From: a virus
Virus record (IMG/VR): IMGVR_UViG_3300032053_000199
Span: 1-39,210 of that record
Strand: one strand, 5' to 3'
Length of the DNA stretch: 39,210 bases
Positions 2,560 through 27,528 of this stretch are shown one piece after another (position 1 is the first letter of the stretch; each line of letters starts with the position of its first letter). A program made the translations under genes and the position numbers. Below the pieces are notes generated by a model. The model was not told the origin of the DNA. It saw only the letters and a program-made list of their open reading frames with translations, and ran no database searches.

Positions 2560-2756
2560 TGCGGTTTTTGTTCTTTCTTCCACAGATCAGCATCAGACCT
2601 ATAAATAGGCTTAAGCCTTTCCTCTTTAAAGCTTTTCACTTTTTCAAGTAGCTTTCTCGGTCTTTTAACGGGCGTTCGTTTAAGGGCCTTTAACGACCCA
2701 AACTTATATCCTGCAAAGAAAAAGATGCACCCAGCGAGTAAAATTAAAATTACCAT
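2556..2756 (-). CDS. Small single-pass membrane protein
   Basis: The chosen ATG at 2756 has GGAAGGG at good spacing. A GTG at 2771 is possible but lacks a site. The 66-residue product has one N-terminal membrane helix (MVILILLAGCIFFFAGYKFG) followed by a Lys/Arg-rich cytoplasmic tail. It overlaps the upstream acetyltransferase stop by 7 bp. It might tether sugar enzymes to the membrane, but that is only a guess from position. No family was recognised. Confidence 0.5.
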   Translation of the reverse strand: MVILILLAGCIFFFAGYKFGSLKALKRTPVKRPRKLLEKVKSFKEERLKPIYRSDADLWKKEQKPH

Positions 2757-3277
2757 TTTTGACCCTTCCACTCTTCATAGGTAATAGAAAATAGATGAGC
2801 ATCTACAAATTTTCCATCCTTGAAATAGAATTCTCTACGGGTTCCGTCCTGCTGCATCCCAAGCTTCAGGAATAATCCTATCGCTGGATTGCCATCAAAG
2901 GATTCCCCCCAAATAGAATTAAGGTTTTGATTCATAAAACCATGTGTAAATAGTGTTTTTAGGGCCATTCTGGCAAAGCCATATCGTTGATGGGCCGGTG
3001 CTATGTATAAAGAAAATTCAGCGTGTTGACAGAGCCTATCAATTGAAGTAAAGCCGCAAACCCCAACAATTCCAGCATCTTTATCATGTACGGAATACAT
3101 TTTTATAGTTTGGTCCTGGTCCTGATCTCTGAACCATTTATCTTGCTCCTGGTCGGAAATTAAATCAGACTGCCTGCACCAGCGCATAATAGATGGGTCG
3201 TTACGCCACTGCCTAATCGCTTCTCTGTATTTAGTGTCTAGAGGAAGAAGTCCACAGCCAAAATTATAATCAATCAA
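2750..3277 (-). CDS. GNAT N-acetyltransferase, PseH/RimJ-like
   Basis: The product is about 175 residues from a TTG that overlaps the previous stop. A longer in-frame ORF reaches 3379 but would overlap 3270-3530 by 110 bp. An early WRND motif (24-27), the central VGVCGFTSID strand and the acetyl-CoA loop HQRYGFA (96-102) fit the RimJ/RimL-type GNAT fold. In pseudaminic acid synthesis PseH N-acetylates the 4-amino sugar nucleotide, and this protein resembles PseH in layout. It follows the aminotransferase, cytidylyltransferase and dehydratase genes, so an amino-sugar substrate is likely. The exact substrate is inferred. Confidence 0.75.
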   Translation of the reverse strand: MIDYNFGCGLLPLDTKYREAIRQWRNDPSIMRWCRQSDLISDQEQDKWFRDQDQDQTIKMYSVHDKDAGIVGVCGFTSIDRLCQHAEFSLYIAPAHQRYGFARMALKTLFTHGFMNQNLNSIWGESFDGNPAIGLFLKLGMQQDGTRREFYFKDGKFVDAHLFSITYEEWKGQKW

Positions 3278-3530
3278 AAGCAGCAATCTTTCTAATTGCT
3301 TTGGCAATATCAAAAACAGACGTAGCTTCTCCATCGGCAATGCCAAAGTTTTCTTTTGTGTATGCCTTATAAAGCTCAAGTTTATTTTTTAGGTCAACTT
3401 CAACTTCATGAATAGCCTTTACAGCATCCGATTGTTGTAGATCTTGGCGCAAAGCTTTTAACTTAGCCTCTACTCCAACTATTTCAGCTTGTAACTCAGT
3501 TACCTTTGTTAATACATTTTCAAAACTCAT
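3270..3530 (-). CDS. Small coiled-coil protein in the sugar block
   Basis: This 86-residue protein is mostly helical, with heptad-like Leu/Val spacing over residues 5-55 (for example TELQAEIVGVEAKLKALRQD). It has no Cys, metal motif or membrane segment. It lacks the Asp-Ser-Leu motif of acyl carrier proteins. The start overlaps the aminotransferase stop by 4 bp (ATGA), so it belongs to the same translational chain. The function is unknown; a scaffold or virion-associated role is possible. Confidence 0.55.
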   Translation of the reverse strand: MSFENVLTKVTELQAEIVGVEAKLKALRQDLQQSDAVKAIHEVEVDLKNKLELYKAYTKENFGIADGEATSVFDIAKAIRKIAAFD

Positions 3531-4756
3531 TTTGTACTCCTTATTTGTTGAGCGAATGGACTTTTTGGTAGCTCTCCTTCGAGCTTAATTTTACCTATTT
3601 TTAATATTAAAGAAATATCTTTTAAAGTGTCAAATATTGAGTTCATTTTTTCCATAAGAGGAAATGAATAAAACCACGACGCACCAAACAATAGACCGGC
3701 CTTACATGCTTCTTGCATGAATAGCCCTTTCTTTAAATCATCTCCAACCAGTAATCCCCTGGTTGGATAGCCCACTATCTTTACTCCAAGATCCATTTCG
3801 TTGAATCTTCTCATGAATTCCATGCCTGAATTCCATAGATCTTGTATTTTAAACTTTGTCTGCAAAAGACTAATTGTTTTAGTGGCGGCACAGATACTGA
3901 TACGTTCACCGGCAAAGGAGGAACTAACGAAATATTCTCCGCACTCCATTATTTCTTTGAGTCCACCAACAATAGAAATTGGCATCCCACCACCGAGAGC
4001 CTTGCCCATAATAATTAAATCTGGATTAGTTCCGCACCAACCGGCAACAGAGTAAGATGGAAACCTAAGACCAGTTATAGTTTCATCAAAAATAAGAACC
4101 GTCTTATTGCGAGTACAGGTATCTCTGAGCCTCTTAAGCCACCTTATTCTATCCATTGAATAATCCGTGATGACCGGCTCTATAATTACAGCAGATACCG
4201 TGTCGTCTATATCTTCAATATCTGTAAACGCTCTTATATTAAATGAATTTACAACACCCAGAGCAGGCGGCATTTGGGAAATGAACTCATCGTGCCATCC
4301 AGAATATCCCTGCCTCAGTATTGTTTTCCTTCCATTATAGGCCCTGGCAATCCTTACGGCAGCGGTGCAGCCTTCCGAGCCTGTCTTTAGAAGTTTTATC
4401 CTCTCAACAAACGGAACTATTTCTTTGAATTTTTCAGCCAGAACTATTTCATCGACTGAAGAAAGAGAGAGAGTAGCTCCTTTTTTGTATGCACTATATA
4501 CCGCAGAAGCAATATCTGGATTTCCATAACCAAGAAGATTCGTCCCAAGACCTGCGACAAAATCAAGGTATTTATTTCCAGCAGTATCTAGAAGAGTCGC
4601 CCCATCAGCAGAGAGTAGGTGCGTAGGATAAACTCCTTTTACAAAACTCTCTGGTCTTTTAGAATTAGTCAAAGATCCCATAGCAATTGATTGCCGGGCC
4701 CTTTTATCGGTTTCAAAGTCCATTACTCTAGAAACGGTGCGTAGCTTGGATTCCAC
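3527..4756 (-). CDS. Class III PLP-dependent aminotransferase (glutamate-1-semialdehyde aminotransferase-like)
   Basis: This 409-residue fold-type I enzyme shows the class III motifs: TGSEGCTAA (125-133), GYSGWHDEF (150-158), the cofactor Asp in IFDETITGLRF (D224) and the PLP lysine in GKALGGGMP (K252). The family includes HemL, but the gene overlaps the sugar cytidylyltransferase by 29 bp. Class III aminotransferases next to SpsF-type cytidylyltransferases occur in bacterial surface-sugar clusters. I infer amination of a sugar-related keto group. The usual PseC/LegC enzyme is DegT-type, so this is not a direct substitute by family. Confidence 0.85.
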   Translation of the reverse strand: MESKLRTVSRVMDFETDKRARQSIAMGSLTNSKRPESFVKGVYPTHLLSADGATLLDTAGNKYLDFVAGLGTNLLGYGNPDIASAVYSAYKKGATLSLSSVDEIVLAEKFKEIVPFVERIKLLKTGSEGCTAAVRIARAYNGRKTILRQGYSGWHDEFISQMPPALGVVNSFNIRAFTDIEDIDDTVSAVIIEPVITDYSMDRIRWLKRLRDTCTRNKTVLIFDETITGLRFPSYSVAGWCGTNPDLIIMGKALGGGMPISIVGGLKEIMECGEYFVSSSFAGERISICAATKTISLLQTKFKIQDLWNSGMEFMRRFNEMDLGVKIVGYPTRGLLVGDDLKKGLFMQEACKAGLLFGASWFYSFPLMEKMNSIFDTLKDISLILKIGKIKLEGELPKSPFAQQIRSTK

Positions 4757-5486
4757 TTATTTCCCTCGACAGTCTAAGAGCCTCTAAAACCCTACTTTTT
4801 TGTTTTCTAACATTTTCCAAATCTTCTTCTGTGTCTACTGAAAGCTTCAAAGAAGAAAGATCCAAGTATCCCACAATATGAGCAGAGCTAAAATTCTTTG
4901 GGCAATCCTTAGATCGTACAAAGGTTGTGACATGCTCTCTATCTGAGGATGTCCATGCATGTTCGTTTATGTATTTTAATAACCTTGCACTCATGATTTC
5001 GCAGTCCATGCCATCAAAGGAAAGACGCAATCTTTCATCAACATTTGAAACGTAATCAAATCTATTTATCATAGCTACGTTCAGAGCTTTCGTTATTACA
5101 GGTGCCGGGATAAGTGGACAGTCACCAGTTATTCTAATCACATAATCAGCACCAGAGACATCAAGGAGGCTTTTATATCTTGAGAGTACGTCGAATTCAG
5201 AGCCTTCGATTATTTGGGCTTTTTTATTAAAAGCAGGCTCGTCTTTAATTTTGTCACCAGCAGGAATCAGCAGATAAACATTAGCGTTAATATGCCTAGA
5301 AGTATTAGGCCGAGATATATAACCTGCAGATTCCCTAGCCGCATCAATTACCCACTCTAACATTGGTTTACCACAGATGTCGGCGAAAACCTTATTTGGA
5401 AACCTGACCGATGTAGATCTAGCCTGAATTCCTATTGCTACTTTTGTCAGCTTTTGTAAATTCGTGGACTCGTTGGTGGACTGCAT
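4728..5486 (-). CDS. Cytidylyltransferase, SpsF/NeuA/PseF-like
   Basis: This 252-residue nucleotidyltransferase begins at an ATG with AAAGGAG at ideal spacing. It has the nucleotide-binding loop QARSTSVRFPNK (21-32), the metal-site motif GDCPLI (121-126) and SVDTEEDL (216-223), all typical of the SpsF-type CMP-sugar synthetase group. These enzymes activate a nonulosonic or related acidic sugar with CTP for transfer. It overlaps the oxidoreductase upstream by 68 bp and the aminotransferase downstream by 29 bp. The precise sugar is unknown. Confidence 0.85.
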   Translation of the reverse strand: MQSTNESTNLQKLTKVAIGIQARSTSVRFPNKVFADICGKPMLEWVIDAARESAGYISRPNTSRHINANVYLLIPAGDKIKDEPAFNKKAQIIEGSEFDVLSRYKSLLDVSGADYVIRITGDCPLIPAPVITKALNVAMINRFDYVSNVDERLRLSFDGMDCEIMSARLLKYINEHAWTSSDREHVTTFVRSKDCPKNFSSAHIVGYLDLSSLKLSVDTEEDLENVRKQKSRVLEALRLSREISGIQATHRF

Positions 5487-6060
5487 ACAGCTCCTTTAGG
5501 CTTTGTTTTTCGCCATTTAACCATCTTTGGATATTCCAGACATAAGCCTGATCCATGTCTTTACTGTTAAGGGTCTGTCCATTTATACAGCAGTCCCAAA
5601 CAGGACTTTTATTTTCCAAACGGACGCTTCCCTCGGCCAAGGCTATGATTTGGAGGCAATCCCAATAAAGGCCATCCTTTCCGCTTCTAAAATAGTCATA
5701 CCAGCTAGGGCCAATAGCCTGGTCATTAAGCAGTTCTCGATACTGCATAACCATAGACAGCGGAGTAAAGTTTTCTTTGTATTTTAATAGAACCCTAGCG
5801 AGAGTGTCGAGGTTCTTACAAATAGGCTTTTCACACAAAACAGGTAATTGTAATTCTGCTAGTAGCATTAGGTGTTTTTCGTGAGAGTCTGTCGGAGTAC
5901 AGATTATTATTCCAGAACACTTTTTTGCAGCATTTACAATCGCTGTATTTGTTATGGGTCCATTTAGAGAGTCGAGTCCAAGCCACTCTATTTTAAGAGA
6001 ATCTAGAATTGCACAATATCTAGTTCCCATAGATCCCCTATGGCCCAAGATAAGAATCAT
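5419..6060 (-). CDS. Short Gfo/Idh/MocA-type oxidoreductase
   Basis: The N-terminal half has a Rossmann fold: GHRGSMG (6-12), CTPTDSH (54-60) and the family motif CEKPI (76-80), whose Lys is normally catalytic. At 213 residues it is much shorter than the usual 320-350, so the C-terminal substrate domain is reduced. The last 68 bp are also coding for the cytidylyltransferase in another frame. Oxidoreductases of this type (PtmA-like position) accompany cytidylyltransferases in legionaminic-type clusters. It probably acts on a sugar or sugar nucleotide with NAD(P). Confidence 0.75.
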   Translation of the reverse strand: MILILGHRGSMGTRYCAILDSLKIEWLGLDSLNGPITNTAIVNAAKKCSGIIICTPTDSHEKHLMLLAELQLPVLCEKPICKNLDTLARVLLKYKENFTPLSMVMQYRELLNDQAIGPSWYDYFRSGKDGLYWDCLQIIALAEGSVRLENKSPVWDCCINGQTLNSKDMDQAYVWNIQRWLNGEKQSLKELYAVHQRVHEFTKADKSSNRNSG

Positions 6061-6878
6061 GTGCAGTATGGCCTTAGAATCTCTATAAGTTCTTTACTAG
6101 TAAACTGAGGAGCATTTTTTGAATTTAGATCAGCACTTATTGACTCATGGATCTTCTCACCAGGCCGTAACCATGTCTCCGTTAGAGTGGGGGTTTTATT
6201 GTAAATATTTCCAATGGCACGAATAATGCCAGTTACCTTTGCAGCCTTCATTTCTGGGATATAAACTCTTGAACTAGAAAAGGGGACTGATAGCATAAAT
6301 TCAACAGCATTTTCTATTGTTATCCAAAACCTAGTCATTTGCATATCGGTGATATTTACTGGACGATGATTTTTAATTTGCTCAATAAAGTAATGAAGAG
6401 CAGACCCGCGGCTACCAAGTACATTACCCCAGCGAAAAACAATAAAACCATTATTGAGCATAATCTTTTCAGAAATTCCCTTGCACATTCCATAGACGTT
6501 TATTGGGTTGACCGCTTTATCGGTAGATGAAAATAAAACATTTTTTATACCCAATTCTTTAGCAACAGAGCAGACATTGATAGTACCAAGGATATTGGTC
6601 TTTACGGACTCCTCGGGATTTTGTTCCATTATCTCAATATGCTTTAGTGCTGCAACATGATAAACCAAAAGTACCCCAACAAGCGCAGAGCGCAGAGAGT
6701 CCCTATCTCTTATGTCTCCAATGACACATTTTATACTTGGAAACCTATTGGCCAGCTCTTTTTGCTTTAATTCGCATCTAGAAAATGCGATTATTTCTGC
6801 TTTTGGGTAATTGATTAAAAGTTGTCTTATTAGCTCTGCGCCTAGAGTCCCGGTAGCACCAAGTACGGCAATTTTCAT
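6057..6878 (-). CDS. UDP-sugar 4,6-dehydratase, PseB/CapD-like
   Basis: This 273-residue extended SDR shows GATGTLG (7-13), GDIRD (54-58), AALKH (76-80), SSTDKAVNP (117-125) with the catalytic Asp-Lys pair, Tyr129 and Lys133, GNVLGSRG (151-158), TRFWIT (182-187) and RPGEK (238-242). This is the pattern of PseB-type UDP-GlcNAc 4,6-dehydratases, the first step of pseudaminic-type sugar synthesis. It is shorter than typical PseB (about 330) but keeps all the catalytic motifs. ATGA overlaps join it to both neighbours. Confidence 0.88.
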   Translation of the reverse strand: MKIAVLGATGTLGAELIRQLLINYPKAEIIAFSRCELKQKELANRFPSIKCVIGDIRDRDSLRSALVGVLLVYHVAALKHIEIMEQNPEESVKTNILGTINVCSVAKELGIKNVLFSSTDKAVNPINVYGMCKGISEKIMLNNGFIVFRWGNVLGSRGSALHYFIEQIKNHRPVNITDMQMTRFWITIENAVEFMLSVPFSSSRVYIPEMKAAKVTGIIRAIGNIYNKTPTLTETWLRPGEKIHESISADLNSKNAPQFTSKELIEILRPYCT

Positions 6879-7066
6879 TCTCTAGCCTTGTAAATCATCA
6901 ATCCAGCAGGATCTATAACTGTAATTTTAACAATTGATCCTCCCCTGGTTAAATCATGGAGAAGCTGATTTGCGTCTGTAGAGAGTGATTTTTTGGGCTT
7001 TTTCTTATTGAAATATTGATTAATGTTAAGCGCCAGTGAGAAGGCTAAAAGAAATACTACAATCAT
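6875..7066 (-). CDS. Small single-pass membrane protein
   Basis: This 63-residue protein has an N-terminal hydrophobic segment (about residues 1-16, MIVVFLLAFSLALNIN), a basic patch (NKKKPKKS) and a short soluble tail. It overlaps the dehydratase start by 4 bp, so it leads the sugar block. No family was recognised. Together with 2556-2756 it brackets the sugar genes with small membrane proteins, which might locate the pathway at the inner membrane. That is inference. Confidence 0.5.
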   Translation of the reverse strand: MIVVFLLAFSLALNINQYFNKKKPKKSLSTDANQLLHDLTRGGSIVKITVIDPAGLMIYKARE

Positions 7067-7119
7067 TTAAAAACTCCTAATTTAAGTTAGTGAAATGATA
7101 TTTTAAATATTGCTTTTAA

Positions 7120-7449
7120 TCAAGGCTTAGGTTTTTTTTCTGGCAGCAGAGCGTCCAGAATCTTTTTTAGGTCCTCGTCTTTAAAAGCAATCATTCTAGG
7201 AGAACTCTCATTACAAAAAGATAGGAATTGAAAAGTGCCGTCATCTAGTCTACGGAAAAAACCATAGTCTTTTAGTACTGGCTCTCTATCGCATATTTCA
7301 GCGGGAATTGGGCCATTGTTTAGCCAAGATGCGGCGTCTACTTCTTTGCGCGTGACACAGCCGCTAGCCGCTAACAACAGAGCTAGAAACAACGCCGACA
7401 ATGCTGGAGCGAATCTCTGAGCCCGGTAAATCGACAGGTTTTCCTGCAT
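7120..7449 (-). CDS. Lipoprotein, candidate outer-membrane spanin (Rz1-like)
   Basis: The ATG at 7449 has AAGGAG at good spacing. The 109-residue product has a signal peptide (hydrophobic LSALFLALLLAAS) ending in a lipobox-like LAASGC, so it should be a lipoprotein. The gene begins inside the preceding small membrane protein gene in another frame (86-bp overlap), next to a holin-like gene and an endolysin. That order is the usual context of Rz/Rz1 spanin pairs, which fuse inner and outer membranes at lysis. The soluble part is longer than many Rz1 proteins and was not recognised. Confidence 0.6.
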   Translation of the reverse strand: MQENLSIYRAQRFAPALSALFLALLLAASGCVTRKEVDAASWLNNGPIPAEICDREPVLKDYGFFRRLDDGTFQFLSFCNESSPRMIAFKDEDLKKILDALLPEKKPKP

Positions 7450-7813: not shown

Positions 7814-7822
7814 AATACCCTC

Positions 7823-8254
7823 CTAAGGTAGAAAAATGATGTTACCAGACTTTGGCGCTCTAATAGTTAGATGCACCCACCTTTTTAGCTTATTTGCCGC
7901 AGCATGTGTTTTTTGAAGCGATTCCATGTATAAACCAAGGTCCTTTAAAGATTCCACATTAGACTGACACCATAGGCCTAACTTCTTGTCAGGATCAGAT
8001 ATATCAATAGCCTGAGCCGTCATGTGTGACGAGTTAGCCGCTCCGCCTATTGCAAAATTATGTGCCTGAGTCCTCCATCCAGATGTAATCTCAAACTCAT
8101 CAATATCGGCCATAGAAAGAACTGTAGAAACTTTTGCTATTAGTTTTTTAGCGTCACTCTCTAGCGTCTTTTCATTAGGTAGTTTATGCCACAAAATCAA
8201 AAACTCAGGATGTTTTTTATCGCTAGTTATATAGCGGGTTAAATCTAGAATCAT
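7823..8254 (-). CDS. Peptidase M15-type endolysin
   Basis: This 143-residue protein has the M15 zinc peptidase pattern: SGWRT (58-62), SSHMTAQAIDI with zinc ligands His77 and Asp84, and WVHL with His128. M15 phage enzymes cleave peptidoglycan stem peptides as D,D-carboxypeptidases or L-Ala-D-Glu endopeptidases. There is no signal peptide, so release through a holin is expected and a holin-like gene follows directly. The start overlaps 8251-8486 by 4 bp. Confidence 0.85.
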   Translation of the reverse strand: MILDLTRYITSDKKHPEFLILWHKLPNEKTLESDAKKLIAKVSTVLSMADIDEFEITSGWRTQAHNFAIGGAANSSHMTAQAIDISDPDKKLGLWCQSNVESLKDLGLYMESLQKTHAAANKLKRWVHLTIRAPKSGNIIFLP

Positions 8255-8486
8255 TCTCTCTCTAGGCCTAATCGCCCCTCAATTCTTGCAAGGGATTCGG
8301 ACAATTCGCCAAGTTTCTCTACAATTTTGCAATCAAGAGCGTCATGTTTTATTTGTAGAGCATCAATTTGTTTTTGACTAATATCTGCCTTTTGATCTAT
8401 GGAATTCACTTTACCCTCCAGCCTGACTAACCAAATTATCAGCCCAACCGTGGCCCCAATTATTGTCATAATCTCGTCAATCGACA
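8251..8486 (-). CDS. Small membrane-anchored coiled-coil protein
   Basis: The ATG at 8486 is preferred over GTG at 8499 because GGCGGT precedes it. The product is about 77 residues with one N-terminal membrane helix (IMTIIGATVGLIIWLV) and a long predicted coiled coil (LEGKVNSIDQKADISQKQID onwards). It resembles lysis-accessory proteins or an XhlA-type protein in general layout only. It lies directly before the endolysin and overlaps the previous gene by 10 bp. Confidence 0.55.
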
Positions 8487-9484
8487 TTTTTACCGCCACT
8501 AGTTAATTGTACCGCGCAATGGGAGTACATTGAATAGACTGCACAATTTTCATCCCACCTAGCTAAGTCAAAATGCTGCGGCCAATTTACATTTTGAGAT
8601 AAAAGCCATTGTAGTGCATTAGCTTTTTCTTTATCCGTTAACACTCCGCAATCGGCAGCCATTCCAGCCACAAAAGGTTGAATCCCTTGCTTTGGTTGGC
8701 AGGTAACGGCGACCCATCGAAGACCGTTTTCCATATTATGGCCACATTTATGGAGTACATATAGGCTCATCTGGCAGGTATGACCAACATAGGGATAAGT
8801 GCGTCCTTTAAACGGAAGCCACGGAAAACGCTCCCAAAACCAACCAAAGGACATGATTCGATAAAAATGGTAACGAAATTTCCACTTCCCGCCTAGTTCT
8901 TTAGCGGCCAGGGCCAGTAGACCAGCAGTCGCGAGATACCCCTGCCCAGCATTAGGCCCGGATACTTTCTTGTTGCCTAAAAAAGCAACACCGCCATTAG
9001 CCGCTCTAGAGCTTAGGTTTCCGAGCTTGTCTCTTAATCCGAATACATTTCCCCAATGATGACTAGCTAGGCTCTCTACAAGATGTTTTTCCTTTAATCC
9101 ACAGACAACATAGAAATATGTCCATGCTGAGATTAAATCCCTAGAAGGTGGGAGTCCAAATCCCCAGGGTACTTTTCTAAACAAAGATCCTTTAGGGGTT
9201 AAAGCTAGAGCGGCCATTTTAGGCGCATCTTTTGGATGAAAGAAACCATGTCCTATCTGGCACATTAGGTTGTGGGTATCTTTTGAGTCTGAGAAAATCT
9301 CAGTCCTTAAATCATCCTTAGGACCTTTTCCGATTAACTCGTTGAAGTTCATTCGAGCTAATGGGATTCGATAGCTACCCCATTTGCGTAAAAATAAATA
9401 ATACCAAGGTAAAAAACCAGCGGCCAATAAAACGACTAGACCGTCAAACAGTCTGGCTATGGTTAAATACCATAACCAGCGCAC
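8477..9484 (-). CDS. Unrecognised 335-residue membrane-associated protein
   Basis: The GTG start follows the fibre gene stop closely (TAAGTG). The N-terminus is hydrophobic (LFDGLVVLLAAGFLPWYYLF), suggesting one or two membrane segments. The rest is rich in Trp, His, Gly and Tyr with many helical stretches (for example GYLATAGLLALAAKELGGKW). I do not recognise a family. Its place between a fibre gene and the lysis cassette suggests a late function at the envelope, possibly related to glycans or membranes, but no catalytic motif is clear. Confidence 0.55.
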   Translation of the reverse strand: MRWLWYLTIARLFDGLVVLLAAGFLPWYYLFLRKWGSYRIPLARMNFNELIGKGPKDDLRTEIFSDSKDTHNLMCQIGHGFFHPKDAPKMAALALTPKGSLFRKVPWGFGLPPSRDLISAWTYFYVVCGLKEKHLVESLASHHWGNVFGLRDKLGNLSSRAANGGVAFLGNKKVSGPNAGQGYLATAGLLALAAKELGGKWKFRYHFYRIMSFGWFWERFPWLPFKGRTYPYVGHTCQMSLYVLHKCGHNMENGLRWVAVTCQPKQGIQPFVAGMAADCGVLTDKEKANALQWLLSQNVNWPQHFDLARWDENCAVYSMYSHCAVQLTSGGKNVD

Positions 9485-10870
9485 TTAGTTCCCAACTTTT
9501 GCAATTGTGAACATACATGTATCGGTCGTTGTCTGCACACTACCAGTTGTGTGCGGTCTAACCACATCTCCGGCTACGAGATTCCCAGTCCAACAACAAA
9601 CTACTTCAATAGTCGCCCCACCAGACCCTGCAATCGACCTTCGTCCGTTAGCATAGGTAACAGTCCCGATATTAGTTGTTAAGGTTCCTGAATTTACCGA
9701 TAGTCCAATAGTAGTTCCGGCATCAGTTCTAACATCAGTATAAGTTATTGCGAAAATACCATTTTCATTAACCGTGAAAACCGAACCTAAAACCGATGTG
9801 TCAGCAGAGGTCGTGTAAGTAATAGCATTTCCAACACTCTTCCTTACGTTTGTAAGTCTTCGGATTTTCGTGCTACCAGAACCGTGACCGTTGCCAGTAT
9901 CAACAATTATTTCGCTTCTCGGCATCGCAGTGCTGAATGGAGCAAGTGAAATTTCATCTGGCGCTTCGTCCCACGTTCCTGCTGTTGTTAGTGTGAATTT
10001 CAAACGTCCAAGTAATCTAGCCGCAACACCAGCACGAGCCGTTGTGGAATATAGAAGAATTCCTGAGTCATCGCCGCCGCCCCCAGCAAGAACAGTAGTT
10101 GTTAAAACAGACGACTCGTCGAAATATGAATTACCAGAAAGAGCCAACTCAATTGTGCTAGCGTTATCAATTGCATAAACATAAACATATTGAGCAAGGC
10201 TTCCACTAGCTAATCCCAAGGTTGAGCCAGAAGAGATCGTTATATTCAACGCTCCTGTTACGGTGCGAGTGTTGTATGTGCCCGTTGCAGCAGTAGAACT
10301 TCTAGTCCCAATAAAGATTGGAGTTGTTGCGGTAGCATCAGCCGCTGCTTTTGTTTTCAGGGCTACCGTTAATGCATTGGCAGATACAGACGCAGATATT
10401 GTTAGATTCTCAAGCTGAGAAGACGAAGATATGCTTCTAAAAATCAAAGTACCTGTTGCATCGTTAGATACTAAAGCATCATGAGCCGCCGAAACAGCAA
10501 GAGGAAGAGTCATTGTGTAACTAGAGCTAGTGACCCCGCCAAGAATTCTTGCAGTGTTTGAGTTAGAAGCATTACCGAAATATACGCTTAGAGGAGCAAG
10601 TGTCGCCGCTCCGATGTTGTAGAGCCCCGTAGTTTTATAGGCGATAGTTGATGCAACACTAGCCGTAATTGTCAAATCATCAGCACTTGCATTTCCTATG
10701 ATAACGTTTCCGTTTAAAGTAGCCGTTCCAGCACAGGTTAGTGCTGAAATGGAAAAGTCCTTGGTTCCGTCGGAAGTTCCGTTAATAATATCTGTAAAGT
10801 TTGTGTTTACTTGTGAAGCATCAGCAGCCGTTCCATTGCTGAATGTATTTGTTACTGTAATGTTAGCCAC
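9485..10870 (-). CDS. Tail fibre or appendage protein
   Basis: The GTG start has GAAGGA upstream. The 461-residue product is rich in Thr, Ser, Ala and Gly with repeated beta-type motifs. Its N-terminus (ITVTNTFSNGTAADASQVNT) matches the opening commonly seen in phage fibre proteins of environmental phages. The middle contains LNGNVIIGNASADDLTITAS-like segments typical of fibre shafts. It follows the ejection-protein genes and precedes lysis genes. The very high Ser/Thr content makes it one candidate target for O-linked sugar. Confidence 0.75.
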   Translation of the reverse strand: MANITVTNTFSNGTAADASQVNTNFTDIINGTSDGTKDFSISALTCAGTATLNGNVIIGNASADDLTITASVASTIAYKTTGLYNIGAATLAPLSVYFGNASNSNTARILGGVTSSSYTMTLPLAVSAAHDALVSNDATGTLIFRSISSSSQLENLTISASVSANALTVALKTKAAADATATTPIFIGTRSSTAATGTYNTRTVTGALNITISSGSTLGLASGSLAQYVYVYAIDNASTIELALSGNSYFDESSVLTTTVLAGGGGDDSGILLYSTTARAGVAARLLGRLKFTLTTAGTWDEAPDEISLAPFSTAMPRSEIIVDTGNGHGSGSTKIRRLTNVRKSVGNAITYTTSADTSVLGSVFTVNENGIFAITYTDVRTDAGTTIGLSVNSGTLTTNIGTVTYANGRRSIAGSGGATIEVVCCWTGNLVAGDVVRPHTTGSVQTTTDTCMFTIAKVGN

Positions 10871-19060: not shown

Positions 19061-19330
19061 TTAGACTCCGTACACTACTAAATGGAATACGTCGCCAGAT
19101 ACTGCGCTGTTAATGTTCATAATGCCGGCACGAGCAGTAGAATTTGATCCAATATTCTTTTTGAAAGTGAGACCGGCAGTAGTCATTGAAACACAGCCAA
19201 GTGAATGACCATGAATAACTTTAAGTCCTGTGTCGATGTTTGCAGAAGCGGCGTCGATTGACATGGATATGATGTGTACTCGTTTGTTTCCGAATACTGA
19301 TTTGTGAATGATTTCGTATGCTGTTGCCAT
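19061..19330 (-). CDS. Small structural protein downstream of the Maf-like gene
   Basis: This 89-residue protein of mixed beta composition (for example HIISMSIDAASANIDTGLKV) has no motif that I recognise. It is 14 bp downstream of the Maf-like glycosyltransferase, in the same direction. Size and position suggest a minor virion protein. The spacing contains AAAAGGGGA, a good ribosome site. Confidence 0.5.
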   Translation of the reverse strand: MATAYEIIHKSVFGNKRVHIISMSIDAASANIDTGLKVIHGHSLGCVSMTTAGLTFKKNIGSNSTARAGIMNINSAVSGDVFHLVVYGV

Positions 19331-19344: not shown

Positions 19345-20409
19345 TTAAAAAAGTATCGTAGTTTGTTCAGTTTCCGGCCTTAAACACTGATCCTCTAGGT
19401 GCCTAGACATCGTGTATTGATCGAAAAGATTAACCAGTTTCATTTGTTTAATTCCAATTATGTTCCCCTCGGGGAAAGCACCTAAAGTGCCCCCCTCACT
19501 ACAGTTTATCCAAATTCCAGGAACACTCAAGGTCACTTGGTCAAACCATGCTTTAAAATTTGCGTAGCTCTGCCACGATAGAACCTTGTTCCCGTAGACA
19601 TCGGTCATTTTCACAACATTACCTAGCTTCGCGTCATATTTAGAGTCCCATGCGTGAAATTTATGCATATATGAAAAACAAAAATCTGCCCCGACAAAAA
19701 CGATTGGATTTGCTCCCATTATCCCTTTTGCAGCATATAAACACGCACCTAAAACATTCCCACCAGTGGAAAGATTGCAGTTAAATTTCTCAATCTTGAA
19801 GACTTCATCGTTAAACTTCTTAGACGGAATAGAGGCACTAAAGAAATAAATCTCACCCTGCCATTTTTCCAACAATCTTGGGGATGTTCCAATGAAAGCA
19901 AGTAGCTTTTTAGTCTTAGTTCTTTCCCAGTAAAATTCGGGAGTATTCTTCCCGCCCTCGCTAACCTCTTCAGAAGTAACCTCTCCTGCGTCTAGAGTTA
20001 CATAAAAATCAACATCAACGCTGTTGTCTTCCATGAAGTGGAAATTATGAAGACATGAAATCAGACCAATTCCGCCCCGGTCTTTTAACAGATGACCATT
20101 TCTCTTAAGACTCGGACCAGCACCGGCAACAATACATGGCTTATACTGAAAGTGATTGTAGAATTTTCCAATACTATGAGCGGCAAAAGACCCAAACTTT
20201 TCTTTGTTGGCTTTGATGTTGGCAAGCCAAATATCATTCCAATATTCCATTGTGGCCACGTCCCCAGAACTAGCCTGAGCAAACATTTCCTTTGGAGTTA
20301 TTGGAGGGTTGTCTATGTTGTTTTGAAACTCTAGCTTCATCTCAACTAAATGCCCAGCATCTCGGAGTTTCTTTAATTCTTGGAGTTCTTGTAATTCTTT
20401 TTCTTCCAT
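19345..20409 (-). CDS. Maf/DUF115-like glycosyltransferase
   Basis: This 354-residue protein has the MAF_flag10/DUF115 pattern: VAGAGPSL (94-101), a VTLDAGE acidic motif (137-143), STGGNVLGACLYAA (214-227), GANPIVFVGADFCF (232-245) and NCSEGGTLG (312-320). Flagellin Maf enzymes transfer pseudaminic or legionaminic acid from CMP-sugars to Ser/Thr, and the same domain occurs in MptE pterin enzymes. The N-terminal 20 residues form a Glu/Lys/Leu helix. It lies between the decoration protein and small structural genes, preceded by a strong hairpin. In a window that also encodes NeuB- and SpsF-type enzymes, sugar transfer to virion proteins is the favoured inference. Confidence 0.82.
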   Translation of the reverse strand: MEEKELQELQELKKLRDAGHLVEMKLEFQNNIDNPPITPKEMFAQASSGDVATMEYWNDIWLANIKANKEKFGSFAAHSIGKFYNHFQYKPCIVAGAGPSLKRNGHLLKDRGGIGLISCLHNFHFMEDNSVDVDFYVTLDAGEVTSEEVSEGGKNTPEFYWERTKTKKLLAFIGTSPRLLEKWQGEIYFFSASIPSKKFNDEVFKIEKFNCNLSTGGNVLGACLYAAKGIMGANPIVFVGADFCFSYMHKFHAWDSKYDAKLGNVVKMTDVYGNKVLSWQSYANFKAWFDQVTLSVPGIWINCSEGGTLGAFPEGNIIGIKQMKLVNLFDQYTMSRHLEDQCLRPETEQTTILF

Positions 20410-20944: not shown

Positions 20945-20960
20945 ATTAAATCCTTTCCTA

Positions 20961-21884
20961 TCACGAAGTTAAAGCGGTGTTAGCAGACAAAAGACGCAAG
21001 TTGCTGTAGCACAATGCTCCAGCCCACAAGATCTTAGCCACTTCAACATCTTGGTTAATGGGTCGTACAAACGGGACGAACTTCATATCGACATTGCTAT
21101 GTGCAACAAGGAAGAAATGTTCCATGTTCAACATAAACAAGTGTGAAGCAGGACATTTAGAATCAGCTACCATGGGAACGCCCATGAACAATAGATTCTC
21201 AAAGCCAGCCGATGCTTTTTTGCTGTCTTGGAAGCGTTGTTGCGGTTGCAACAGATTCCAGTAAGCATTATGCAAAGCACGAGTCGTGGTAATCAGATTA
21301 GGCTTCTCTTGATCGACACTAGCCGCTTCAAATTGGGTCTTTAGGACCGCCAAACTTAAAGTAGTACTTGAAGTATCGAGCTGCGGGCGCCACCACGAGA
21401 AGTCAGTCTGGCTGATGCCACCAACGGTGTTTGAAGCCGATGCTGCAACGCGCAAGCCAACCAATTGATCTGTGTCAGTGCCGGAAGAATAGAGGCCATC
21501 TCCCAAGTTCTGAGCCAATGAGCGTTCAGCATTTTTAACCTTGGATTTAACCAGGTCAATTACAGCAGAATCGCCAGAATTCTTAAGCTTATCAATGCCT
21601 TGGATAGAAATGTTCGCGTAGTGCTGCTTCCAAACGAATTCGGCAGCCGTGAAACTTTCTGCATCAGTAGTGCTGAGGAGTTCAGCTCCGCTGTAGGCTC
21701 CAGAAGCCGCATCTTGCGCGTATTCTAGGGGAACCATGATACGCTCTCCGCCGTTAATCTTGCGGTAGCCATTGCCCTTTTTCATTTCAGACAAGAGGAC
21801 GTTCGAGTCGAAAATATTGTCATAAAGTTTCGGTAAAAATTTCTTTTCCGTGATCGCTGAGATTTGATTGTATGTCAAAGCCAT
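20961..21884 (-). CDS. Major capsid protein
   Basis: This 307-residue protein follows the scaffold gene. It starts with ALTYNQISAITEKKFLPKLY and has helix NAERSLAQNLGDGLYSSG and a C-terminal strand region MKFVPFVRPINQDVEVAKIL, typical of HK97-fold coat proteins in this phage group. AAAGGAG precedes the ATG. It should form the procapsid shell on the scaffold, with the portal at one vertex. No propeptide is obvious. Confidence 0.85.
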   Translation of the reverse strand: MALTYNQISAITEKKFLPKLYDNIFDSNVLLSEMKKGNGYRKINGGERIMVPLEYAQDAASGAYSGAELLSTTDAESFTAAEFVWKQHYANISIQGIDKLKNSGDSAVIDLVKSKVKNAERSLAQNLGDGLYSSGTDTDQLVGLRVAASASNTVGGISQTDFSWWRPQLDTSSTTLSLAVLKTQFEAASVDQEKPNLITTTRALHNAYWNLLQPQQRFQDSKKASAGFENLLFMGVPMVADSKCPASHLFMLNMEHFFLVAHSNVDMKFVPFVRPINQDVEVAKILWAGALCYSNLRLLSANTALTS

Positions 21885-21899
21885 TTAAGGCTCCTTTCG

Positions 21900-22715
21900 T
21901 TATAATCCTAGGTCCGCTAGGTTTGATAGTATTGATTCGGTTGATTCGTAGTGCTTTCCAGTGCTTTTGGAGACTTGTGTTGGTGCTTTCTTGGTAGAAA
22001 GTAGACCTGTCTTCAATTGTCGCTGTTTATCGGCAACTACTTGTTCTTTTCCTCGCGCTTCGGCTGCTTTTAAAAGGTCGTCATGGTAAAGATCCAGGAA
22101 AGCCGCTTTAAATGTCGTTAAACCAGATTTGTTTGCATGGTTTACAACAAGTTGCTCCCTAGTTCTGCCATCGGCATCAGCAGTTGCCCAATCTAGATCC
22201 TTGAATCGCTCACGGATGGATTGGATCTCTGCGTCTAACGCCTGGTCGTCCCTTTTATTCTTTTCAGCTTCACGCTCAGATTTAATTTCATTAGCAAAGG
22301 ATTCAAATTGATTGATCTTTTGCAATAATGGATGGTCACTAGGAAGATCGCTATAGCCTTCCTTTTTTGCATGAATAAGACTCTGTAGTTCTTCAAATCT
22401 ATCGGGATTAGCTTTAACCCAATCATCAATAGGCTTGTATGAAGACTCTAGGTTTGATGCCAGCTCACGCTGACGGTTAATTTCCGCCATCTTTTGAGGA
22501 TAGTCATAACCCTGTTGTGCCCACTTCTTTAATTGGTCAATCGAGGCCCGAATTTGTTTCCCGTTATGGACAAACTCATGCTCTATAGGAGCTTCTACCG
22601 GAGCGGAAACCACTTGAGCTTCTACCTCTACCGGAGTTTCTACGCCCTCACTCTCAATTCCCTCTAATAGAGAATCAACATCAACCTCTTCATTCACGCC
22701 TTCATTTTCAAACAT
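21900..22715 (-). CDS. Scaffolding protein
   Basis: This 271-residue acidic protein is helical and rich in Glu, Lys and Gln. It starts with an acidic stretch (FENEGVNEEVDVDSLLEGIE), has a central coiled-coil part (about 75-200) and ends with a basic segment (KQRQLKTGLLSTKKAPTQVS). Such composition just upstream of the coat gene is typical of internal scaffolds, which leave or are degraded during maturation. The start overlaps the previous stop by one base. Confidence 0.75.
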   Translation of the reverse strand: MFENEGVNEEVDVDSLLEGIESEGVETPVEVEAQVVSAPVEAPIEHEFVHNGKQIRASIDQLKKWAQQGYDYPQKMAEINRQRELASNLESSYKPIDDWVKANPDRFEELQSLIHAKKEGYSDLPSDHPLLQKINQFESFANEIKSEREAEKNKRDDQALDAEIQSIRERFKDLDWATADADGRTREQLVVNHANKSGLTTFKAAFLDLYHDDLLKAAEARGKEQVVADKQRQLKTGLLSTKKAPTQVSKSTGKHYESTESILSNLADLGL

Positions 22716-22954: not shown

Positions 22955-23017
22955 AAATTCTCCTTTTCTAGGGGTATATTTCAAACAGAAAAAAAGAAGA
23001 ATTTAAGTTACTACAAA

Positions 23018-24976
23018 TTATACTGGGATATTAGCTCGTTGAATAGCCCCCTGTTGCTTTTGTTCTTCAACCGCTTGTTTCCCATCATTAGAGAGACTTT
23101 GTTGATTCAATTGATGCTCTCTGTCAGCCTGTGCCGATTGTCCGTCTGCTGCCATCTGCTGTTGTTGCTGCTGTTGTTGCATTTGGGCATCTTGCTGCGC
23201 CTTACCAGTCATTCGTTCAATAATTATGTCTGCATTTGGCAAATCAGCCAGCTTTAACATCTCTACTTGGTCGATAATCTGACGATCAAACAACTCTAAA
23301 CCTTGACGGTATTGTTTAGCTCTCATGAATGGCATTGCAGAACCAGTAGACACTTTTAGGTCGAGATTCCCCTTAATAGGGATTTCTTGCTGTCCCATGT
23401 AACCACCAGTAGGCCCCATTCTCTGAACTACGGCAACCTTTTGTAGTGATCCATCTTCGTTGTACTGTGGTTCACCGTTGTTCATGACTGTTTTAACGTG
23501 GAACTTAAAATACTTGGATGCATTAAGATTATTCGTAACTCGGACAACAGTAGGTACATCTCTGAATTGTACAACTCTTGAGACATACATCTGTCCCAGA
23601 TCTTGCAAATACGCATCTAAATATCGGCTCTTTAAACGGCTACGAGTGTTCGCAGCCTCTTGAATATCTTGAATAGCGGCAGCGGCAGTTACTCCAGGAG
23701 GAGGAGTAGTTTCTACAGTACCGGAAATATCGGTGAACCATTCTTTCATTCGATCAATCATTTGCAATACGAAAGGCTGTAACTGAACGCCCTCTTCTCG
23801 ACGAACTTCGCTCCCTTTGTTCTTTTCAACAATTAAACCGGGACTATTTACAAGATTTTCAGTGTCTATGCCACTTTCGTGGTCCACCACCCAAATCGGA
23901 TTACCCATTAGAGTTAGTACGTCTAAACTAAATGAAACTAGTTTATTAAAGATCTTTTGAGGGTGTTCTAACTGCTCGATCTCAGAAATACCCCAGAATT
24001 CACGAGGCAACATATAGTTTACTAAACGAGAATAGGGAAATTTTCCATCTTCATATGGATTTGGCCCATCTTCCAAAAGAACACCACCAGCGGAAACTAA
24101 TTTCCTGCCATTTGGGTACTTCAATCGGACATTTGAGCCGACTTGTACCCCATTTTCCATAATGGGATCTTCTATCTGCTCATCAGAAGAACAATACATG
24201 ATTTTCTTTAAACATTTATTGTCTAAAAGATTCTCAGTGTTGCCACTCGAACTTTGCATTGATTTCGTATCATCAATCGGAAGGCGTAATTGAAAGACCG
24301 GATCTAAATCTGTTTTTTCATTGCGTATAGCATCGCTCATGTCAGACTTAACGTACTTACCAAGCTCAGGGTAGTCCCTCTTGATAACGGCAATGTCTGT
24401 GGGTTCAGCTTTAATGAAAGAACACGAGTGTTTGTTAACATCTCTAGAATTTGGATCAGGATATGCCGCATATGGATCACACGATTCAAATTCAATATCG
24501 CCATCCATAGCTTTTTTATTGGGATTGTAAACTAAACTAGATAGTCCAGTTCCGTAAAGATGGGCATCGTACACGGATTCAGTAAGGGCCATCAACCAGT
24601 TATTTTTTACCCAATCAACTTCAGCAATCTCATTCATCAAATCAGCAAACTCCCGATCGGAGGGCTCTTGGGCTTGATATTCCCACTTAGGCCTAACGTC
24701 TGTAATGATAGGAACTGAGCTTTGAATTGCTTTGAAGATTAAATTAATTACTTCACTGTGGCGGTACGATGGGCGTTGCTCATTCCATTGTTGCCCACGG
24801 AACATCTTATAATTATTCATCCACTTAGAGTCGTAATTACCGCGCCATTTCTTATTTTTATTAAAGGTTTTCTCGATAAACTTAAGCGTCTTTCGTTCTT
24901 CATCCGTAGGGTTGTACTGCTCGCCAGAATCATTTTCTTTTTCAAGCTCAGGCGATTGTTCGTGTTCTGAAATCAT
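23018..24976 (-). CDS. Portal protein, P22-like
   Basis: This 652-residue protein starts (after an acidic leader) with TDEERKTLKFIEKTFNKNKK and has the wing and stem composition of P22-type portals, including the segment GTVETTPPPGVTAAAAIQDI. The last 60 residues are Gln-rich with eight consecutive Gln, a possible barrel-like tail. It forms the dodecameric DNA channel and docks terminase and the gp4-like adaptor. It starts with a 4-bp overlap with the FmdB-like gene. Confidence 0.85.
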   Translation of the reverse strand: MISEHEQSPELEKENDSGEQYNPTDEERKTLKFIEKTFNKNKKWRGNYDSKWMNNYKMFRGQQWNEQRPSYRHSEVINLIFKAIQSSVPIITDVRPKWEYQAQEPSDREFADLMNEIAEVDWVKNNWLMALTESVYDAHLYGTGLSSLVYNPNKKAMDGDIEFESCDPYAAYPDPNSRDVNKHSCSFIKAEPTDIAVIKRDYPELGKYVKSDMSDAIRNEKTDLDPVFQLRLPIDDTKSMQSSSGNTENLLDNKCLKKIMYCSSDEQIEDPIMENGVQVGSNVRLKYPNGRKLVSAGGVLLEDGPNPYEDGKFPYSRLVNYMLPREFWGISEIEQLEHPQKIFNKLVSFSLDVLTLMGNPIWVVDHESGIDTENLVNSPGLIVEKNKGSEVRREEGVQLQPFVLQMIDRMKEWFTDISGTVETTPPPGVTAAAAIQDIQEAANTRSRLKSRYLDAYLQDLGQMYVSRVVQFRDVPTVVRVTNNLNASKYFKFHVKTVMNNGEPQYNEDGSLQKVAVVQRMGPTGGYMGQQEIPIKGNLDLKVSTGSAMPFMRAKQYRQGLELFDRQIIDQVEMLKLADLPNADIIIERMTGKAQQDAQMQQQQQQQQMAADGQSAQADREHQLNQQSLSNDGKQAVEEQKQQGAIQRANIPV

Positions 24977-25299
24977 AAATTATCCCATTCCTTTTCGCGT
25001 TCTTTAGCTCTCTTAACTACAGTCTCACGATGAAGAGTGTCGGCACTCTCATTGCCAACCTCAATTAAACCTTTTCGATCCGCTAACTCTTTACGATGTC
25101 TAGCGTTTCTGACAACACAGCCTAGCCCTGGATTAAATTCCGCATCCTGCACTTTGGCCCCCATTATCTGGAAACTAGTATAAACCCTGTCTAAGACTAT
25201 ACCGCATCCACAGATCTCTTCCCTTGTAGCGTTATGCATGGTTTTAACGATCTCTTGTTTTGTGCCACAGGCAACGCATTTATAAACATAGGTCGGCAT
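24973..25299 (-). CDS. FmdB-like zinc-ribbon protein
   Basis: The ATG at 25299 gives MPTYVYKCVACGTKQEIVKT, the classic FmdB-family start with a first CxxC. CGCG near residue 34 gives the second metal pair. A GTG at 25338 would extend it into the large terminase gene, so I prefer the later start. It lacks a strong Shine-Dalgarno. FmdB proteins are small zinc ribbons of unclear regulatory role and are often found in phages between terminase and portal. The C-terminal half is charged. Confidence 0.75.
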   Translation of the reverse strand: MPTYVYKCVACGTKQEIVKTMHNATREEICGCGIVLDRVYTSFQIMGAKVQDAEFNPGLGCVVRNARHRKELADRKGLIEVGNESADTLHRETVVKRAKEREKEWDNL

Positions 25300-25312
25300 T
25301 AGATTGATAATA

Positions 25313-26614
25313 TCACTTTGACCAAGTTTCAGCACCACCGGCTCTTTTTTTCTTCATCAACTCAACAAAAGGGTTCGTACTCTTCGGGGCCCTTACCTTT
25401 ACTTCTTTTATTAAATGTCTAGTACCTAGCGTTATATATCTATCACAATCCATCGCATGATCGTTTGCCGCGACTGGGTTCATATCCTCTGTCTCATCAT
25501 CCGGGCCCACGTCATCAGCTTCAGGATAGTGGTAAGTCTCCCTCTCATCAGAAGAATAGGGACATGCCCCAGCAAACTCTTTATACTTCCTAGTCTTTAC
25601 CAGGTCGTAATGCATATCAATCCCAAGCCTTATTGATCCAGGTCCAGTTGATGCCCCTTCTGCTGGTATATAATTACGATTAAAGTCTTCGATATATCCT
25701 GGTTGGTCAGTTCCGCAAAAGATTCTCTCAACCGGCCATATCTTCAAGGTTCTTTGCACTATCTCCCTTTGTTCCTTTAAGATCAGACCACTCCGATAAA
25801 CCTCGCTTATCCCATATTCCATGCCGTCTGGTGTTATAGCTCTGACTTTAAAAACAAAAGGATCAGTGAATCCCCAGTCAATCCCGCCGAAGTACCTTGT
25901 ACCTACTGGAAGAGCAAAGGGAGTTATTAGATTGTCATCATCGGACCAACAATTATATACAAGCCCTTCCATTTTCTGCCAGTCACCACCAAACAACATC
26001 TGGAATCTTCTCGGGTCCATATTCTGCTTCCGTTGTTCACGAATAACCGGGTCATGTAACGAGTTATGCGGATTATCCCAGCTTGCCGCTTGTATTAATG
26101 TTATGTCTGGACGCAAACCTTTTTGCTTTGGCTTAATTATCTCTTTGTAAATCCAATTCAAAGTATATGGTGACGTCGTTAGCAATATAGGGCAGTTTAG
26201 AGTTGATTGACGCCCTTGGATGTTTTCCCAGAAGTACAACGAGTATTTACCGGCCTCATCTCCCCATATAGCCCTAACATCAGGAATACCTACAATTGAA
26301 TCCGGATCGGTAGCAGTTCTACAATAAACAGTAGCTCCACTATGCATCTTGAAGATTGCCTCGCCATCCTTGTATGTTCCATAACCGCCCATAACCCGTA
26401 AGAAATGAGGAAGTGTTGATTGCTTTAGTATCTTATAAGTCGGAGCAGTTATCAGGAAGTTATCCGTTGGGAGTATGTTCGTATGCAATTGTCTTTTCAT
26501 CCAGATAGCACCAGATAGGGTCTTGCCATACTGAACCCCGGTACCAAGCACAGTCAGTTGAGCATTTGACATTATAGCGTCATACTGTTTTTGGCTGTGA
26601 CTTTGGAAGTTCAT
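25313..26614 (-). CDS. Terminase large subunit
   Basis: This 433-residue motor has a Walker A-like GTGVQYGKT (24-32), Walker B WGDE (117-120), coupling motif LLTTSPY (134-140) and the RNase H-like nuclease start GGIDWGFTDPF with Asp236. It packages DNA into the procapsid and cuts it. The start overlaps the NeuB-like gene stop by 4 bp (ATGA), so synthesis may be coupled to that of the sugar enzyme. Headful cutting would fit the circular-permutation idea, but packaging type is not proven. Confidence 0.9.
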   Translation of the reverse strand: MNFQSHSQKQYDAIMSNAQLTVLGTGVQYGKTLSGAIWMKRQLHTNILPTDNFLITAPTYKILKQSTLPHFLRVMGGYGTYKDGEAIFKMHSGATVYCRTATDPDSIVGIPDVRAIWGDEAGKYSLYFWENIQGRQSTLNCPILLTTSPYTLNWIYKEIIKPKQKGLRPDITLIQAASWDNPHNSLHDPVIREQRKQNMDPRRFQMLFGGDWQKMEGLVYNCWSDDDNLITPFALPVGTRYFGGIDWGFTDPFVFKVRAITPDGMEYGISEVYRSGLILKEQREIVQRTLKIWPVERIFCGTDQPGYIEDFNRNYIPAEGASTGPGSIRLGIDMHYDLVKTRKYKEFAGACPYSSDERETYHYPEADDVGPDDETEDMNPVAANDHAMDCDRYITLGTRHLIKEVKVRAPKSTNPFVELMKKKRAGGAETWSK

Positions 26615-27528
26615 TGCTTTGGCTCTATAGCATCCCCTACGTTATAGTCGTGTCTCGAGACTTGATTGTCTATCATTGATACTGGATGGGCGCCTTTTAG
26701 GTCCGACTTCAAAGAGCGGTAGATACCATAGTTGTCATCCTTCCTAAGAGTGTCACCTACCTTGATAACTCTAGTCGCTATCATCCTTCTGTTGTGTCTT
26801 AAGATCATTGCTAGTTCTTCTTTAGATGGACACACCACCGGAAGCTTAGTCGTGTTGATGTTCTTGGTCATGGCTAGGAAGTCTTCACTTGATAGAGAGT
26901 GTCCAGCGTCAGGGGTATCGGTATAGTTAAAAGGGTTATAGTGCTTCTCTAGTAAGTCGGCACCATACTCAAAAGCCATTAATGGAATGTTGAATACGTC
27001 GAGACTATGATCGGATAGACCGGCCGGCCTTCCTGTCAATTCTCGAAGCCTAAGTATCTTCCTAAGGTTAGAGTGGTTAGACGGATAGGACGCTTCACAG
27101 TGTAAGAAGACTACAAAAGCATTCTCTAGCATGTTGTTTACTATCTGGATGTCTGTCTCAGTATGGCCACCCGTTGACACAATGATCTCCTTACCGCAAG
27201 TCTCAAGGAATCGGATCATATCAACATGGTTCATTTCACTTGAGGCCAGCTTGTGGGTTTCAACATAGGGGTCGGTTATCTTAAGACCCTCAACGCTGAA
27301 GGCTGTGCACATAAACTCAATTCCCACGGCTTGGCACTTACTGGCCAGTAAAGGTATCCAATCCCTAGGCATCTCAGCCGATATTCTCCCACTATGCCCG
27401 AATAGCTCTTGGTGAGAGTATAGTTGAAACTTGATAGCGTCGGCACCGCATTTCTTAGCTATAGAGCAGGCATCCTTACAGTCTTCAAAGGTTTTCCAGT
27501 TTGATCCGAGTTCGGCAATAATCTTCAT
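26611..27528 (-). CDS. Nonulosonic acid synthase, NeuB/SpsE-like
   Basis: This 305-residue protein has the NeuB set in order: IAELGSN (4-10), KFQ (33-35), KLASSE (93-98), VSTG (117-120), LHCEASYP (142-149), GLSDHS (170-175), EKHY (194-197) and PDAGHSLSSEDF (206-217). A SAF-type C-terminal domain starts near NRRMIATRVIKVGDT (246 on). Such enzymes condense phosphoenolpyruvate with a hexose derivative to make a nonulosonic acid. The gene lies between terminase subunits with 4-bp overlaps on both sides, a very unusual place for a sugar enzyme. The exact hexose is unknown. Confidence 0.92.
   Translation of the reverse strand: MKIIAELGSNWKTFEDCKDACSIAKKCGADAIKFQLYSHQELFGHSGRISAEMPRDWIPLLASKCQAVGIEFMCTAFSVEGLKITDPYVETHKLASSEMNHVDMIRFLETCGKEIIVSTGGHTETDIQIVNNMLENAFVVFLHCEASYPSNHSNLRKILRLRELTGRPAGLSDHSLDVFNIPLMAFEYGADLLEKHYNPFNYTDTPDAGHSLSSEDFLAMTKNINTTKLPVVCPSKEELAMILRHNRRMIATRVIKVGDTLRKDDNYGIYRSLKSDLKGAHPVSMIDNQVSRHDYNVGDAIEPKQ

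Follow-up and report, generated by a model that had tools for sequence, protein, structure and literature searches.

In this study, we show that the IMG/VR virus record IMGVR_UViG_3300032053_000199, analyzed over its whole length of 39,210 bp (the window), is a podovirus-like phage genome in which TerL, a P22-type portal, the capsid gene and further head genes all run leftward, and that seven sugar-enzyme genes lie on the same minus strand, encoding a NeuB/SpsE-type synthase, a Maf-type transferase, a PseB-like dehydratase, a short Gfo/Idh-type oxidoreductase, an SpsF-like cytidylyltransferase, a class III aminotransferase and a PseH-like GNAT acetyltransferase (Table 1). We regard this enzyme module and its linkage to virion genes as firm. 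It is probable that these phages make a cytidine monophosphate (CMP)-activated nonulosonic acid (NulO) with which they modify the proteins of their own heads. In a wider form of this proposal, which we favor with slightly less assurance, a whole family of small podovirus-like phages would use a new, shortened route to a sialic-acid-like sugar and coat the capsid with it by means of a stripped-down, flagellin-type Maf, glycosylation being a core function of the virion and not an accessory one.

The initial annotation had proposed a NulO-type pathway with a Maf-like transferase, expressed together with capsid genes, and our analysis supports the pathway, the transferase and the linkage to the capsid genes; its further suggestion, glycosylation of virion proteins, we regard as probable. 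By Pfam profile search all seven proteins belong to the families named above; PF03102, PF01973, PF02348 and the short-chain dehydrogenase/reductase (SDR) and aminotransferase profiles were all matched, including those for NeuB (143.7 bits, cut-off 22.1) and Maf (78.6 bits, cut-off 34.6). The enzyme identities, the pathway and transferase assignments and the tie to the capsid genes are all strengthened by out-group controls, by conserved synteny and by an AlphaFold model. The equivalog models for NeuB, PseI, PseB, PseF and PseH all scored under their cut-offs, so that the exact substrates are not fixed by profile: for the substrate class of NeuB, the NeuB model gave 122 vs 399.65 bits and the PseI model 118 vs 340.25 bits, PseB reached 4.7e-62 with TIGR03589, and the GNAT protein reached 2e-19 with the PseH model TIGR03585 (70.2 bits, cut-off 93.1).

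The structures in the Protein Data Bank (PDB) that match NeuB are PseI, NeuB and SpsE. K33, Q35, H174, E194 and H196 are invariant in 26 phage homologues, as are N266 and R271, which are carried by a SAF-like C-terminal tail; the SAF Pfam profile itself did not match the window NeuB. We take the lysine, histidines and glutamate of the barrel and the SAF arginine to have the catalytic roles known for such enzymes. The T-x9-Y-x3-K triad reported for PseB-type dehydratases (PMC7439481) is kept across the phage family, and the lysine motif of the aminotransferase, which binds pyridoxal phosphate (PLP), is kept in every phage member but one (G040). This invariance of catalytic residues in NeuB, PseB, Maf and, with the one exception, the aminotransferase points, as far as sequence can tell, to working enzymes.

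The Maf-type protein seems to be a minimal form that consists of the catalytic core. Its AlphaFold model (predicted local distance difference test score, pLDDT, 92) has the Magnetospirillum Maf 5mu5 as top fold match (Foldseek E 2e-10; Z 22.1, root-mean-square deviation 2.9, 241 residues aligned), followed by an archaeal HPPK (8sd5, Z 14.2) and the CMP-sialyltransferases ST8SiaIII and CstII (Z about 9). Sharing a Pfam family name with diphosphokinases and having HPPK as its second-best fold match, the PF01973 protein might be a diphosphokinase, for pterin or another substrate (MptE/HPPK-like), with no relation to NeuB; this is very improbable, and the pterin-kinase reading was rejected on structure and gene context, since Maf is clearly the better match, CMP-sialyltransferases match too, the gene is linked to NeuB in 46/48 family contigs, and pterin genes were not observed in the window. 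The phage protein covers residues 238-514 of the 632-residue 5mu5 chain, and the flanking domains, including the C-terminal region, are missing. In Maf-1 the acceptor specificity for flagellin is conferred by a C-terminal tetratricopeptide repeat (TPR) domain (PMC13317340), for which the modeled phage Maf would appear to have no room. Its relatives are 44-66% identical to the window protein (24 aligned), and 48 columns are invariant in these 24 homologues, including parts of GxGPSL, SCLHN, the GGN region and GAD.

Relatives of this Maf are encoded in 164 virus contigs (scan with alignment), and about 42 contigs were mapped, most of them in full. The gene order is NeuB-TerL-zinc ribbon-portal-scaffold-major capsid protein (MCP)-decoration-Maf-p19061 and, further on, fibre-PseB-Gfo/Idh-SpsF-aminotransferase-GNAT. 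Maf lies no more than 1.5 kb after MCP, right behind the capsid and head-decoration genes, in all contigs that cover the site (86/86), and NeuB is just upstream of TerL in 46 of the 48 family contigs with enough sequence, the out-group L044 left out. In the window, NeuB sits between TerS and TerL and overlaps each by 4 bp, as PseB overlaps Gfo/Idh. The five remaining sugar genes are mostly clustered behind the fibre gene in near-complete genomes; G044 and G046 have PseB relocated near NeuB, and G057 has the cluster inverted as a whole; the sugar-gene set is nevertheless complete in all three, which speaks for a functional link and not for mere hitch-hiking. Dozens of diverged contigs share these genes and their order, which indicates that the observation is not due to chance. 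Moreover, the detected core of 17 near-complete genomes consists almost wholly of virion genes and the seven sugar enzymes, and no early gene of the window is as widely shared. A scan of virus contigs with NeuB recovered 10 relatives, all with TerL just downstream of NeuB and all carrying Maf where they are long enough; relatives recovered with the capsid protein also carry Maf, the remote L044 excepted. Median dN/dS (the ratio of nonsynonymous to synonymous substitution rates) is 0.044 for Maf, 0.066 for NeuB and 0.036 for MCP, showing purifying selection on both sugar genes, and the distances of Maf, NeuB and SpsF track those of TerL (r 0.64-0.65).

Neither NeuB nor Maf was found in the capsid and packaging regions of out-groups of the same capsid family, namely two Manatee Spring phages, Stenotrophomonas phage BUCT555 and Myxococcus phage Mx9. 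In a search for cultured relatives, neither Maf nor SpsF had a tblastn match in 50,697 phage records; the sole NeuB match there was a Moritella capsule locus, and the aminotransferase and PseB matches were for the most part unannotated records filed under generic phage names, contigs of bacterial appearance or epimerases of cyanophages. A single-sequence aminotransferase scan of virus contigs found none, which reflects a limit of peptide patterns, as the full contigs carry the gene. The sequence clade of the phage Maf is phage-specific, with one match among 84,980 species. This match is a 3.5 kb scaffold (L065) in an Actinomycetota metagenome-assembled genome (MAG) that codes for the end portion of a Maf from this phage family; it may be a host hint or a mis-binning, and was judged too weak for naming a host.

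In bacteria, maf genes are located near flagellin genes. The corresponding neighbor of the phage Maf is a head decoration or cement protein, encoded directly 5' of it, which would be the leading candidate acceptor, although to read a capsid-protein neighbor as the acceptor is guilt by association and not proof. Its AlphaFold model (pLDDT 77, moderate) matches the base of the phi29 head fibre and capsid proteins of Pam3, TW1 (capsid stabilizing protein), T1, Sf11 and HFTV1, and the gene was found in 16/16 other near-complete genomes. A second candidate acceptor, or a partner, is the small conserved protein p19061, whose gene follows Maf immediately in 98/98 contigs covering the site and for which no homologue was found in the out-group loci.

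With regard to the sugar itself, the assignment to a NulO-type pathway holds, while a textbook CMP-pseudaminic or CMP-legionaminic acid route does not. The DegT aminotransferase (PseC type, PF01041) was found in 0/19 contigs, which have the class III aminotransferase instead, and neither the PseG/SpsG-type hydrolase (PF04101) nor the NeuC/LegG-type hydrolysing epimerase (PF02350) was found in 17 contigs, so that the pathway appears to be non-canonical. Among the 17 near-complete genomes there was also no enzyme-sized core gene of unassigned function that could fill the hydrolase step. The Gfo/Idh protein has 197-249 amino acids (aa) in most phage members and 341 aa in its bacterial counterpart. 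That counterpart belongs to a bacterial locus (L170, in a genome from the phylum of an Actinomycetota MAG) in which SpsF, full-length Gfo/Idh, class III aminotransferase and a B12 radical SAM enzyme stand side by side, with NeuB, a NeuC-type epimerase and a PglD-type acetyltransferase nearby; the aminotransferase match there has E 6.7e-85, and the other match in that genome, probably a housekeeping enzyme, 1.4e-53. Since this SpsF-Gfo/Idh-aminotransferase locus lies near NeuB, the phage set mirrors a cellular NulO module, and it is possible that the locus is the source of an undescribed nonulosonic acid.

Setting out from the observed enzyme families, synteny, core status and folds of Maf and the decoration protein, we infer the order of the reactions, the transfer to protein and the acceptor as follows. 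Late in infection the phage would itself produce the CMP-activated nonulosonic acid, a nine-carbon sugar resembling sialic acid. PseB would dehydrate a uridine diphosphate (UDP)-linked N-acetylhexosamine, and the class III aminotransferase, GNAT and short Gfo/Idh proteins would install or tailor amino and acyl groups. UDP would have to be removed before NeuB acts, a step for which none of the tested enzyme families is encoded and which a host enzyme may perform. NeuB would then condense the sugar with phosphoenolpyruvate, SpsF would load it on CMP, and the minimal Maf would transfer it to serine or threonine of a capsid protein, the best candidates being the decoration protein and p19061.

Several observations weigh against this proposal. 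Many contigs were gathered by means of Maf, and counts of Maf presence are thus partly biased, the NeuB and MCP scans being the unbiased ones. The distances of PseB, aminotransferase and Gfo/Idh follow those of TerL weakly, and exchange between phages may therefore have occurred for these genes. Judged from the genes, the path leading to the NeuB substrate is incomplete on paper, as the PseC, PseG and NeuC/LegG families were not found. Maf is intact while NeuB is absent in G040 and G061; perhaps some members can do without the phage pathway, or the sugar is supplied by the host. In favor of the proposal, the loss in G040 extends to PseB, Gfo/Idh and SpsF, and the aminotransferase that is left lacks the PLP lysine (GKA to GAA), indicating that the set decays together; that both phages keep Maf marks it as the most indispensable part. 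The same missing hydrolase and DegT steps and the same two phages are what would be expected if the virion sugar were mostly made by the host, with phage enzymes altering or boosting the host CMP-NulO pool before transfer by Maf. We give this explanation, which overlaps with ours on the target, a minor though appreciable share of the probability; the first enzyme (PseB), the condensing enzyme (NeuB) and the activating enzyme (SpsF) are all kept as core genes, which would be redundant in a NulO-making host.

Lastly, a tyrosine recombinase is present in 7/19 tested family contigs (G011, G036, G038, G043, G047, G052 and G061), although PF00589 has no match in the window. Lysogeny is therefore possible, which leaves room for a role in the host lysogen. 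Mafs are known NulO transferases onto flagellin (PMC13317340), and the prophage NulO-modifying enzymes EpaA/EpaB alter the host capsule in Acinetobacter (PMC12053666). Accordingly, the target of the phage Maf in the infected or lysogenic cell might be flagellin or some other surface protein of the host, whose glycosylation would block superinfection or alter the surface. We consider this unlikely: the sugar genes lie in the virion block, with NeuB overlapping the terminase genes; the phage Maf lacks the parts that flank residues 238-514 of 5mu5, the TPR domain being the determinant of flagellin specificity in Maf-1 (PMC13317340); and Maf is as conserved as the capsid gene in members with and without the recombinase. 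The virion location and the capsid-like conservation favor a role in the virion over one at the host surface.

The extra genes that flank NeuB/TerL in relatives mostly encode DNA methyltransferases or other proteins unrelated to the pathway, not sugar enzymes. Since phage glycosyltransferases are known to hypermodify DNA (Pyle 2024, as cited in PMC12619734) and these phages have DNA methyltransferase genes, the sugar could be attached to phage DNA instead of protein, which we hold to be the least probable of the explanations considered and scarcely credible; base-modifying genes are outside the core set, and Maf sits with capsid genes, not replication genes. The methyltransferases beside NeuB/TerL or upstream differ in type (L045:3886-4848, L059:18355-19119, L162:14589-15392), marking a swap site. 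Upstream of TerL, G040 encodes a Tet/JBP-like oxygenase and an FkbM methyltransferase (L128:9682-10509, 9041-9727), perhaps for a different modification.

The remaining features of the window are included in Table 1. An endolysin gene lies between the fibre and the sugar genes and is preceded by a small membrane-type open reading frame (ORF). A metallophosphoesterase gene adjoins the sugar cluster on the opposite strand, and G040 has one too. A small early-region protein has a fibronectin type III domain.

Table 1. Features of the window, with the basis of each assignment
Feature	Position	Strand	Basis or remark
Metallophosphoesterase	1610-2287	+	phrog_221 2.2e-51
PseH-like GNAT acetyltransferase	2750-3277	-	PF13302 2.5e-16; start of ORF could be 3379
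Small protein of no assigned function	3270-3530	-	between aminotransferase and GNAT; G011 has a weak homologue in the corresponding position
Class III PLP aminotransferase (GSA-aminotransferase-like)	3527-4756	-	PF00202 1.5e-34; PLP lysine in GKALGGG
SpsF-like cytidylyltransferase (CMP activation)	4728-5486	-	PF02348 6e-15; PDB 6oew cytidylyltransferase 1.6e-14
Short Gfo/Idh/MocA-type oxidoreductase, 213 aa	5419-6060	-	PF01408 7e-8; without C-terminal domain
PseB-like UDP-N-acetylglucosamine 4,6-dehydratase	6057-6878	-	PF02719 5.6e-67; PDB 2gn4
Peptidase M15-type endolysin	7823-8254		PF08291 3.5e-12
Small membrane-type ORF	8251-8499		
p19061, small conserved protein	19061-19330	-	directly after Maf
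Maf-type NulO glycosyltransferase (predicted)	19345-20409	-	PF01973 6.3e-22
Head decoration/cement protein, 155 aa	20477-20944	-	beta protein
MCP	20961-21884	-	phrog_9953 8.8e-61
Scaffold-like protein	21900-22715	-	between portal and MCP; kept in 16/16 near-complete genomes
P22-type portal	23018-24976	-	PF16510 9.7e-29; phrog_156 1.8e-49
Small zinc-ribbon-like protein	24973-25338		between TerL and portal; kept in 16/16 near-complete relatives
Terminase large subunit (TerL)	25313-26614	-	phrog_2 1.1e-39
NeuB/SpsE-type nonulosonate synthase	26611-27528	-	PF03102 8.5e-42
Terminase small subunit-like (TerS, helix-turn-helix)	27525-27956	-	PF13384 9.9e-6; location before TerL
Small early-region protein, fibronectin type III domain	33421-33879		PF00041 5e-8

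Glycosylation of phage virions is known from few cases. We found no earlier report in the open-access literature of a phage synthesizing NulO for its own particle, of a phage Maf or of a phage DUF115 protein. Since it belongs to the core genome of a broad uncultured family (164 contigs), the sugar module must matter to the particle, for example to its charge, stability or attachment. If our proposal is true, two useful tools would result, a minimal Maf that lacks the flagellin-binding parts and a short route to CMP-NulO, and the question of why a capsid is given an acidic sugar would become testable.

The phage Maf resembles the Maf flagellin glycosyltransferases (PF01973; Magnetospirillum 5mu5) in its catalytic fold and its linkage to NeuB and CMP-sugar genes; it differs from the Magnetospirillum protein in being a core of about 340 aa, compared with a chain of 632 aa, and in lying beside capsid decoration genes and not flagellin. 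The same fold recurs elsewhere among uncultured phages, in MptE-like proteins (BFVD A0A0F7L3H2, A0A6J5PG89 and others) that share about 11-16% identity with the window Maf. In common with the CMP-pseudaminic and CMP-legionaminic acid pathways (C. jejuni Pse/Leg, B. subtilis sps; PMC7439481), the phage has homologues of PseB, GNAT, NeuB/SpsE and SpsF, whereas its aminotransferase is of class III instead of DegT, its Gfo/Idh is short and no PseG/SpsG or NeuC/LegG family was found. The Acinetobacter prophage enzymes EpaA/EpaB are likewise phage-borne NulO enzymes and include a CTP_transf_3 domain; they convert host pseudaminic acid destined for the bacterial capsule, and neither NeuB nor Maf is described with them (PMC12053666), unlike in the window phage. 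Mycobacteriophage virions carry glycans on the C-termini of capsid and tail-tube proteins (Freeman 2023, as cited in PMC12619734 and PMC11652166). As far as these citing papers describe that system, the likeness lies in phage-encoded glycosylation of capsid proteins, here predicted from genes, and the difference in the dedicated nonulosonic acid route and the Maf-type transferase that the present phages would use for it.

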